From NCBI GenBank assembly GCA_016869975.1, contig VGCZ01000007.1:1-64000 (forward strand): a stretch of 64,000 nt of DNA, in the 5' to 3' direction. Position numbers and translations under genes: made by a program. The stretch comes from Alphaproteobacteria bacterium. GTDB lineage: Bacteria; Pseudomonadota; Alphaproteobacteria; Reyranellales; Reyranellaceae. This document shows positions 39,410 through 41,798 of this stretch, in pieces. The stretch's first letter is position 1. Each line of letters opens with the position of its first letter. The notes under the pieces are model-generated. The model saw only the letters and a program-made list of their open reading frames with translations, had not been told where the DNA came from and did no database searches.

Positions 39410-39892
39410 CTAGGCGGCGCCGGCTTGGCTGAGCAGCATGCCCAGCCGCAGCCCCATGGCGATGTCGTCTTCCTGCCCGAAGCCCTGGTAGGCGATATCG
39501 CCGTCGCGATCGATGAGCACGGTCGAGGGCGTGCCCTGGAAGCGATAGGCCCGCATGGTCAGCGGGATGGGATCGTTGTCGCCGGCCATGTCGACGCCGA
39601 CCGGGAAGGTGATGCCGTATTCGTGGATGAACGCCTCCAGCGACACCGGCGTCATCGCCGCGTGGTGCTCGAACACGGTGTGCAGGCCGATGACGGCGAG
39701 GTCGGTCCGCTGGAGCATCGTCGCGACCTTGCGCGCCTGCGGGATCGCGTGAGAGACGCATCCCGGGCAGAGCATCTGGAAGCTATGCAGAAGCACCGGC
39801 CGGCCGCGCAATCCTGCAAGCGTGACCGGCTCCTTGGTGTTGAACCAGCGGGAGACCTGCAATTCCGGCGCGCGCTGTCGGTTCGTTTCCAT
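39410..39892 (-). CDS. AhpC/TSA-type redoxin with CPGC motif
   Basis: A 160-residue thioredoxin-fold protein with active-site pair Cys42 and Cys45 in FQMLCPGCVSHAIPQ. No signal peptide or membrane anchor, so probably cytoplasmic. The sequence GTPSTVLIDRDGDIAYQGFG contains the cis-Pro loop of TlpA/AhpC-like proteins. It could be a peroxiredoxin-like or disulfide-handling protein. The ATG at 39892 is 29 bases after the upstream secreted-protein gene, so the two are probably one transcript. A longer upstream frame is an overlap artefact. Confidence 0.8.
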   Translation of the reverse strand: METNRQRAPELQVSRWFNTKEPVTLAGLRGRPVLLHSFQMLCPGCVSHAIPQARKVATMLQRTDLAVIGLHTVFEHHAAMTPVSLEAFIHEYGITFPVGVDMAGDNDPIPLTMRAYRFQGTPSTVLIDRDGDIAYQGFGQEDDIAMGLRLGMLLSQAGAA

Positions 39893-39921
39893 GGTGGTAC
39901 CTTGTGCTCCAGTTCCGGAGG

Positions 39922-40641
39922 TCACCGGCTCGCCGGCACCGCCTTGCCGGGAAGCGACAGATCGCCAGAGCCGACCTTGAAGATGTCGCTCACGCAAAGC
40001 AACGGTGCATGCAGGTTGCCATTGACCTTGAGCGCTGTCGTGACGCCGTCGAACTGCACGCTCTGCGCGGTCTCGGCGCTGTCGAAGGGGACTGTCACAC
40101 GGACCGTCTTCGCGTCGAAACGCGGTTTGTAGCCAGGGCTGTCGATGAGAATTGGCGCGCCGGGCCAGGTCTTCGGGAGCTTCGGGCGCGTGCCCGGCTC
40201 GATGTCCTTGACCTTGAGAGCCCCGGGACCGCAGGCATCGTCCTTGGTCAGAACGACCCAGTGGAAGTGCCACTGGGAGCCATCGTTTTCGAACAACGGC
40301 TCGTCATTGAAGTCGGGGTGGGCGGTCACGGCGGCGGCGAGGATACCGGAGCCCTTCTCGAAGCCGACGGCTTCGGGGTCGATCTTGGTCGGCCAGACAT
40401 AAGCATAGACTCCGGCGCCGGCGAACTTGCCGGTCTTGGGCGGCTTTTCGGTGCCGGGCTCTCCCCGGGTCGTCATGATGAACGTGACCAGATTGCCCTT
40501 GGTCTCGGCGCGCGCCTGCAGGATGTCGAACGTGGCCTTGACCTTGTCGTTAGCGGAAGCCGTCACATCGTGGGCGGCGGTGGTCCCCGTGACCAGCGCC
40601 GCGACCAAGGCCCCGGCGCTCAAGATGTACCCCGGCTTCAT
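39922..40641 (-). CDS. Secreted protein of unknown function
   Basis: A 239-residue protein with a clear signal peptide (residues 1-29, cleavage after TGTTAAHD region). No family was recognised. Notable features are the aromatic/His motif QWHFHWVVL near residues 124-132, an acidic KIDPEAVGF segment, and only two Cys after the signal (in DDACGPG and LLCVSD), which may form a disulfide. GGGAGG lies 6 bases before the ATG. It is upstream of the redoxin gene and divergent from a Cys-cluster MarR regulator. Confidence 0.8.
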   Translation of the reverse strand: MKPGYILSAGALVAALVTGTTAAHDVTASANDKVKATFDILQARAETKGNLVTFIMTTRGEPGTEKPPKTGKFAGAGVYAYVWPTKIDPEAVGFEKGSGILAAAVTAHPDFNDEPLFENDGSQWHFHWVVLTKDDACGPGALKVKDIEPGTRPKLPKTWPGAPILIDSPGYKPRFDAKTVRVTVPFDSAETAQSVQFDGVTTALKVNGNLHAPLLCVSDIFKVGSGDLSLPGKAVPASR

Positions 40642-40666
40642 GCGATGCCTCCCATTGCTCAAATGA

Positions 40667-40729
40667 TATCGAGTCGATACTATTGAGCGGGCGCCAGGGC
40701 GTCAACGCATAATGTCGAGTCGCTACTAT
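40667..40729. promoter_or_regulatory. Operator-like repeats between the secreted-protein gene and marR
   Basis: A perfect 13-base palindrome, TATCGAGTCGATA (40667-40679), lies within the longer motif TCGAGTCGATACTAT (40669-40683). A direct copy with one change, TCGAGTCGCTACTAT, occurs at 40715-40729, 46 bases away and overlapping the 5' end of the MarR gene. The two copies flank the 70-base divergent promoter region and are good candidates for MarR binding and autoregulation. Confidence 0.6.
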
Positions 40730-41305
40730 ATGTCGACCAGAGGCTATGCGGCCGAGGCCGCTCAACTCATCGATCGCCTGGAGCGGCTGGCCCGCTCCGG
40801 TGAGGCCCGGCACGGCGTCAACCCGGCGCAATGGGAGGCGTTGCGCTATCTGGCGCAGGCCAACCGCTTCTCACGGACTCCGGCGGCGCTGGCGGACTAC
40901 CTTGCCTCCACCCGCGGCACGGTTTCCCAGACGCTGATCGCGCTGGAGGGCAAAGGGCTCGTGGCGCGGCGGCAGAGCGCGCGCGACAAGCGATCGGTCG
41001 ATCTCGACCTCACCGATGCGGGGCGCAGGGTCCTGGTGGACGACCCGCTGCAAGAGCTGGCGCGCGACCTGCGCAAGGGCGACAGTGACGAGGGTCTGGC
41101 CGCGGCGGTCGAGGTGTTGCGTGACGCCTTGCGACGGGCGCTGCGGCGCAACGGCAGCCGCCCGTTCGGCGTCTGCCATGCCTGCCGCCACTTCCAGAAG
41201 AACGCCTCGGGACGCGGCAGACATCATTGCGCGCTGATCGACGAGCCGTTGAGCGAGGAAGACAGCGGCTTGATCTGCACCGAGCAGGAGCCCGTGCCCG
41301 CCTGA
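40712..41305 (+). CDS. MarR-family regulator with C-terminal Cys cluster
   Basis: A 197-residue winged-helix protein. The MarR DNA-binding part contains LADYLASTRGTVSQTLIALE and GLVARRQSARDKRSVDLDLT (wing). After about residue 150 an unusual tail carries Cys155 and Cys158 (GVCHAC), Cys173 (HHC) and Cys189 (LICTEQE), plausible ligands for Zn or an Fe-S cluster or a thiol sensor. Two in-frame ATGs exist (40712 and 40730). Neither has a clear Shine-Dalgarno, so the start is uncertain. It diverges from the secreted protein/redoxin pair and probably controls it. Confidence 0.85.
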   Translation: MSSRYYMSTRGYAAEAAQLIDRLERLARSGEARHGVNPAQWEALRYLAQANRFSRTPAALADYLASTRGTVSQTLIALEGKGLVARRQSARDKRSVDLDLTDAGRRVLVDDPLQELARDLRKGDSDEGLAAAVEVLRDALRRALRRNGSRPFGVCHACRHFQKNASGRGRHHCALIDEPLSEEDSGLICTEQEPVPA

Positions 41306-41324: not shown

Positions 41325-41798
41325 CTACGTGGCGACCCGTATGCCGTTCAGCGCCACGATATCGCCGGGCTGGCCGGCGGTCAGGCGGGCGAGCAGGGAG
41401 GCGAGGGTGGCGATCTCCGCCTCTGTCCATCGGTCACGGAAGACGCCCTCGGCCATCCGCTCGAGCGATGCCCGGGCGTCGACGATCGCGCTTTGGCCGG
41501 CTTCCGTCAGCGTGACGTAGGCCAACCGCGCGTCGCGCGTGTTGGCTTGCCTTCCGACCATGCCGATCTTTTCCAGCGGTGTGGTCATGCGGGTGACGGT
41601 CGAGGGGCTGACGCTCAACCGCCGGGCCAGGTCGACCCGACTCAAGCGGCGCATCGGCGCACCCTCCAGATGCATCAGCAGCAGCACCTCGTTGAGGCCC
41701 AGGCCATGGATCGAGCCCAGGCCACGGCCGAACCGATCGGCGATGCCGGCATGAGCGTGCAGCAGGTGCAAGACGGCGGTGTAGGATGGGGTAGTCAT
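41325..41798 (-). CDS. MarR-family transcriptional regulator
   Basis: A 157-residue winged-helix protein with MarR features LARRLSVSPSTVTRMTTPLE (recognition helix) and MVGRQANTRDARLAYVTLTE (wing). It has no cysteine, unlike its neighbour. It converges with the Cys-cluster MarR and diverges from the GST-led operon, which it may regulate. The palindrome ATATAGGCAGTTATAT lies just upstream of its ATG. Confidence 0.88.
   Translation of the reverse strand: MTTPSYTAVLHLLHAHAGIADRFGRGLGSIHGLGLNEVLLLMHLEGAPMRRLSRVDLARRLSVSPSTVTRMTTPLEKIGMVGRQANTRDARLAYVTLTEAGQSAIVDARASLERMAEGVFRDRWTEAEIATLASLLARLTAGQPGDIVALNGIRVAT

Follow-up and report, generated by a model that had tools for sequence, protein, structure and literature searches.

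Introduction

Thiol-switch regulators of the MarR family, e.g., OhrR, are known. In Corynebacterium, the winged-helix protein ArnR carries a C-terminal [4Fe-4S] cluster and senses nitric oxide (NO) (PMC12343034). In P. aeruginosa, RclR controls the AhpD-like protein RclX against HOCl/HOSCN (PMC7950407).

Here, we analyzed a divergent gene unit (divergon) in the window, i.e., the whole 64,000-nucleotide stretch of alphaproteobacterial DNA under study. An earlier note had described this unit as a small redox-responsive module made up of a secreted protein, a redoxin and a MarR-family regulator with a cysteine-bearing tail. Within the open-access papers that could be searched, no paper describing such a module was found. 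Like regulators of the OhrR, MarR and HpaR type, the window MarR has a winged-helix domain, a divergent arrangement and predicted palindromic operators, but it adds a C-terminal tail of approximately 45 residues with four near-invariant cysteines. The combination of a winged-helix DNA-binding domain with a C-terminal cysteine set is reminiscent of ArnR and SufR, when these are compared by features and not by homology; ArnR, however, has three conserved cysteines and regulates nitrate respiration and hmp.

Results

The redoxin and secreted-protein genes lie on the reverse strand of the window, divergent from the MarR gene (Table 1). All three genes bore out the motifs ascribed to them in the earlier note, i.e., LCPGC in the redoxin, QWHFHW in the secreted protein and the tail cysteines in the MarR. 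The closest relative of the locus, L048, encodes a secreted protein and a MarR that are 82% and 76% identical, respectively, to those of the window. The MarR gene had previously been read from an ATG at 40712, giving a product of 197 aa, but this start is not conserved: L048 has ATA at that position, whereas the ATG at 40730 is kept, and translation therefore probably begins at 40730. Judging from this alignment, the MarR is probably a protein of 191 aa with Cys149/152/167/183, and the intergenic region probably measures 88 bp. Unlike the window, L048 possesses an additional secreted-looking ORF (L048:10759-11183, HTGHFHLLID), which separates its redoxin gene from its secreted gene. The window itself contains a second MarR gene (41325-41798), which is convergent with the Cys-tail MarR gene and encodes a protein without the Cys tail (34% identity to the Cys-tail MarR, residues 25-112).

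Table 1. Positions and supporting evidence for the features of the divergon in the window.
Feature	Coordinates	Strand	Basis
Redoxin, AhpC/TSA/thioredoxin-like, CPGC, 160 aa	39410..39892	-	Pfam PF00578 and PF08534 above cut-off
Secreted protein of unnamed family, 239 aa, signal-like N-terminus, WHFHW	39922..40641	-	Conservation over 100 sequences; AF2
Operator 1 (predicted), 19-bp palindrome TGATATCGAGTCGATACTA	40664..40682	strandless	Matrix search and cross-validation
Sigma-70-like promoter TTGACG-17-TAGTAT for secreted gene (weak)	40677..40705	-	Sequence
Operator 2 (predicted), 19-bp palindrome TAATGTCGAGTCGCTACTA	40710..40728	strandless	Matrix search; start-codon comparison
MarR-family regulator with Cys tail, 191 aa	40730..41305	+	Pfam MarR_2/MarR; start by comparison with L048
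Cys tail C-x2-C-x14-C-x15-C (Cys149 to Cys183, 191-aa reading)	41174..41278	+	Conservation in 94 relatives

The regulator scored 47.4 bits against PF12802 (cut-off 27) and 39.6 against PF01047 (cut-off 24.6), and Foldseek matched it to MepR, SlyA and other MarR structures. As claimed previously, its four cysteines (Cys155, 158, 173 and 189 in the 197-aa reading) are situated in a tail past the MarR fold, C-terminal to the Pfam domain at residues 34-96. Among solved structures, no match covered this tail, and AF2 modeled it as irregular structure with short strands. In 94 relatives from two deep clades, the four cysteines were approximately 97% conserved, while the flanks and one spacer varied (C-x2-C-x(8-24)-C-x15-C). 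They made up four of the seven invariant columns of a cross-branch alignment and were the most conserved feature of the protein. A conserved C-terminal cysteine ligand set, as found in Fe-S winged-helix regulators (ArnR/SufR-like), is thus present at the level of sequence, and a role for the Cys-tail MarR as a metal or Fe-S sensor is plausible.

We favor an Fe-S cluster as the center that this tail would hold, and regard zinc as possible. The alternative that survives best is that the tail carries structural or regulatory zinc or forms disulfides, in which case the regulator would act as a thiol switch and hold no Fe-S cluster, and the physiology, i.e., an oxidant or electrophile response, would be the same. 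Four cysteines with one C-x2-C pair are a common zinc ligand set, the observed spacing is equally compatible with zinc, a point against our model, and the irregular modeled tail with its short strands, as well as the existence of OhrR-like thiol-switch MarRs, would be in keeping with this explanation. Against it, all four cysteines are kept while their flanks and spacing drift, although any metal site would fit this pattern, and one branch of Cys-tail MarRs lies among Fe-S assembly genes. We consider a thiol switch without a cluster unlikely, and an Fe-S cluster remains the favored center.

The earlier note had also reported two near-identical motifs in a 70-base gap. Both TCGAGTCG-TACTAT motifs are present (at about 40669-40683 and 40715-40729), but the second falls inside the 5' end of the MarR ORF as read from 40712. 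The limits given for the repeats were slightly off, in that each motif belongs to a 19-bp palindrome (consensus TAGTATCGASTCGATACTA); the two palindromes are spaced 46 bp, and the second stops 1 bp short of the likely MarR start. Matrix matches were found 5' of 50/51 Cys-tail MarR genes of the branch that includes the window, mostly as pairs 28-61 bp apart. A matrix derived from 17 loci with an rpoH context detected a site in 28/28 loci where the MarR gene accompanies the secreted gene, and in 26-27 of these 28 it detected a second one (shuffles, about 0.01 and 0), and the reverse cross-validation, using a matrix trained on secreted-context loci, matched 17/17 rpoH-context loci. Across 289 genomes, the exact operator pattern occurred at seven sites, every one of them at a Cys-tail MarR gene, as compared with one for the reversed control. 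Matrix and genome counts thus support the proposal that the repeats are regulatory sites, predicted here to form a conserved paired operator, with palindromes at the regulator's own divergent promoter as is typical of the MarR family.

In the window's genome, operators 1 and 2 were the only sites with at most one mismatch. A genome-wide search for a regulon beyond the divergon returned only sites with at least three mismatches, near the level of the reversed control; given that none was clearly above chance, the predicted regulon in this genome is the divergon alone. Operator 1 contains the -10 element of the sigma-70-like promoter of the secreted gene, a call that is weak because a conserved -35/-10 was sought in relatives and the spacing was not kept. 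No match was obtained in an Rfam search.

The MarR tree comprised two deep clades. The clade without the window wholly adjoins the secreted gene, a uniform context that partly reflects sample choice since the clade was sampled from secreted-gene loci. It possesses its own conserved palindrome, TTAGGASTCCTAA, which has the same GA-S-TC core as that of the window's clade (held-out test, 12/14 versus a null of 0.007). In the window's clade, the MarR gene lies beside the secreted gene at some loci and beside an rpoH-type sigma gene or genes of Fe-S assembly at others. An rpoH-type sigma gene adjoins the Cys-tail MarR gene in 17/29 loci of the class sample, with the sigma family confirmed for two. 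In Rhodobacter, RpoHII plays an important part in resistance to singlet oxygen (PMC7074977); the sigma genes found here are assigned as rpoH-type. At L007-L024 (e.g., L010, L013), the same paired operator accompanies a Cys-tail MarR gene and an rpoH-type sigma-32 gene that diverge from each other, and our literature search found no paper on a divergent pair of this kind.

The L026 MarR gene is surrounded by NfuA-type, Rrf2/IscR-type and Grx4 genes. Together, L026, L027 and L030 represent a branch of Cys-tail MarRs adjoining NfuA-type, Rrf2/IscR-type, Grx4 or Rieske-type genes. At L012 (L012:274-2088), the Cys-tail MarR frame continues in frame into sequence that was recognized by eye as NhaA-like antiporter, and the fourth Cys reads Ser. 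A further Cys-tail MarR gene (L129) is carried on a conjugative IncHI2A plasmid of Enterobacter hormaechei, where it is divergent from a glutaredoxin-domain gene, near tpx.

The secreted family has at least 590 loci in genome contigs, and neighborhoods were counted for the best 80 of these, using a distance of 2.5 kb for regulators. In this gene-neighborhood test, which had been set beforehand, the association recurred strongly across genomes: 49/80 loci had a Cys-tail MarR gene within 2.5 kb, lying divergent from the secreted gene in 27 cases, co-directional upstream in 21 and otherwise in one. A Cupin_6-AraC regulator was found in 21 others, divergent where examined, and none of the 80 loci carried both regulators. 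The best NCBIfam match of this AraC is RclR, often with an AhpD-like gene downstream, a likeness to the RclR-RclX pair; its score of 74, however, is far below the equivalog cut-off of 400, indicating that it is not RclR itself. The window locus differs from an RclR-type system in having a MarR in place of the Cupin_6-AraC, and the available part of the RclR-RclX account mentions no such secreted protein (PMC7950407).

A redoxin gene was present within 2.5 kb of the secreted gene in 38/67 loci with full flanks. Genes for an AhpD-like peroxidase-related enzyme were found in both the MarR and the AraC contexts, those for heme HTHP and a thioredoxin-like protein were also recurrent, and at a single locus (L110) a catalase gene was directly upstream. 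Divergon-type units recur in dozens of bacterial groups beside such oxidant-defense genes, suggesting that the unit probably senses oxidative damage. The genomic context (redoxin, AhpD-like, HTHP, catalase, RclR-like AraC, rpoH, Fe-S assembly) thus supports the module being redox-responsive, as first proposed.

The module may instead answer NO or the oxygen/respiratory state, and not peroxides or reactive chlorine. ArnR, an NO sensor (PMC12343034), would provide an analogy, and a few loci point in this direction: at L133, the MarR gene diverges from a gene annotated as protoglobin; at L132, Rrf2 and cbb3-oxidase genes are just downstream; and on a Phaeobacter plasmid, nirK is about 6 kb off. 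Each of these contexts is a single case, however, and redoxin, AhpD-like, HTHP or RclR-like partners occur far more often; we judge this possibility improbable as compared with a response to oxidants.

With regard to the effector proteins, the redoxin contains the AhpC-TSA and Redoxin domains of Pfam, both above cut-off, and a catalytic Cys pair, placing it in the AhpC-TSA/Redoxin group. FQMLC-x2-C was found in nearly all of 43 relatives, and CPGC in 34. The protein shares its Pfam domains and C-x2-C motif with AhpC-TSA and ResA-like thiol enzymes, but falls outside the named NCBIfam subfamilies, all of which scored far below cut-off, and it has no signal-like N-terminus. The redoxin and the secreted protein would therefore act in different compartments.

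Searches of Pfam, NCBIfam and PDB sequences with the secreted protein gave no match, and sequence, fold and profile searches detected no homolog of known function. The family was present in 14/289 sampled genomes of the class, and its members on Phaeobacter and Leisingera plasmids are annotated "hypothetical protein". On Phaeobacter inhibens plasmid p1 (L128), the secreted-family gene and Cys-tail MarR-MOSC diverge from each other, and nirK lies about 6 kb away. The window member begins with a hydrophobic signal-like stretch and has QWHFHW at residues 123-128. In 100 family sequences, WH-x-HW, His108, His125, His127 and Cys137 were invariant, while Cys216 and His211 were 99% and 97% conserved, respectively; the protein may have a metal site and a Cys137-Cys216 disulfide. 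A Ca-loop-like DENxDG is present in 74/100 members and absent from that of the window. The AF2 model is beta-rich (pLDDT 78), and the matches from a fold search were all weak and of the beta-sandwich type, none exceeding Z 6.3, amongst them 2ivf_C, the heme-b subunit of ethylbenzene dehydrogenase (Z 5.7, 140 residues), which tied with immunoglobulin (antibody) domains.

Two candidate assignments gained no support. Comparison with EB_dh heme-b (PF09459) gave an hhalign probability of 0.3% (E 0.22) in a rough test with a small control alignment and some out-of-frame rows. An N-terminal His-brace (signal cleavage before His) was dropped because, by a crude pattern, no more than roughly two thirds of the members had His at the presumed cleavage site. 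The weakest explanation, that the secreted protein binds a metal (copper, iron, calcium) or heme, with the divergon serving metal handling and the MarR sensing metal directly, could draw on the invariant His108, His125 and His127, the nearly invariant His211, DENxDG and the weak model-based 2ivf_C match, but is very doubtful given the negative EB_dh comparison, the tie with antibody domains, the window member without DENxDG and the finding of no recurrent metal transporter among secreted-gene neighbors.

Discussion

The gene set, its recurrence, the paired operators, the conserved cysteines and the neighbors are the observations from which we infer, with moderate confidence, that the MarR represses its own gene, probably carries a redox-labile metal center and, under oxidant stress, releases a periplasmic protein and thiol enzymes from repression. 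In this model, a MarR dimer would bind both 19-bp palindromes between the divergent units, probably covering the promoters, and would repress its own gene together with the secreted protein-redoxin unit. The four tail cysteines would hold the redox-labile center, most likely an iron-sulfur cluster and possibly zinc, and damage to this center by an oxidant, an electrophile or nitric oxide would lead to loss of DNA binding. Upon derepression, the periplasmic protein, with its conserved His/Cys set, and the cytoplasmic thiol enzyme would handle the oxidant or its damage. By analogy, ArnR may serve as a precedent for a C-terminal Fe-S cluster on a winged helix and RclR-RclX for the pairing of a regulator and an AhpD-like defense enzyme.

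Several further points count against the model. Recurrent neighbors include some without oxidant specificity, i.e., MOSC, DUF2024 and glutamine amidotransferase; the redoxin and the secreted protein belong to separate compartments; the latter has no homolog of known function; and the sigma-70-like spacing is unconserved in relatives. More tentatively, and with rather less than even confidence, we suggest that the Cys-tail MarRs may be Fe-S-sensing repressors of a family not described so far, with a conserved paired operator. Depending on the lineage, they would control an rpoH-type sigma factor, genes of Fe-S assembly, or a periplasmic oxidant-defense family that is itself new and that switched regulator at least once (MarR versus RclR-like AraC).

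Across many Proteobacteria and in Bdellovibrionota, the secreted family, for which neither Pfam nor NCBIfam has a name, is linked with oxidant-type regulators from more than one family, thereby providing a first testable function for it. The Cys-tail MarRs have a defined operator and make a concrete prediction possible, namely a redox-labile metal center, through which one type of sensor would connect periplasmic defense and Fe-S assembly with an rpoH-type sigma factor.
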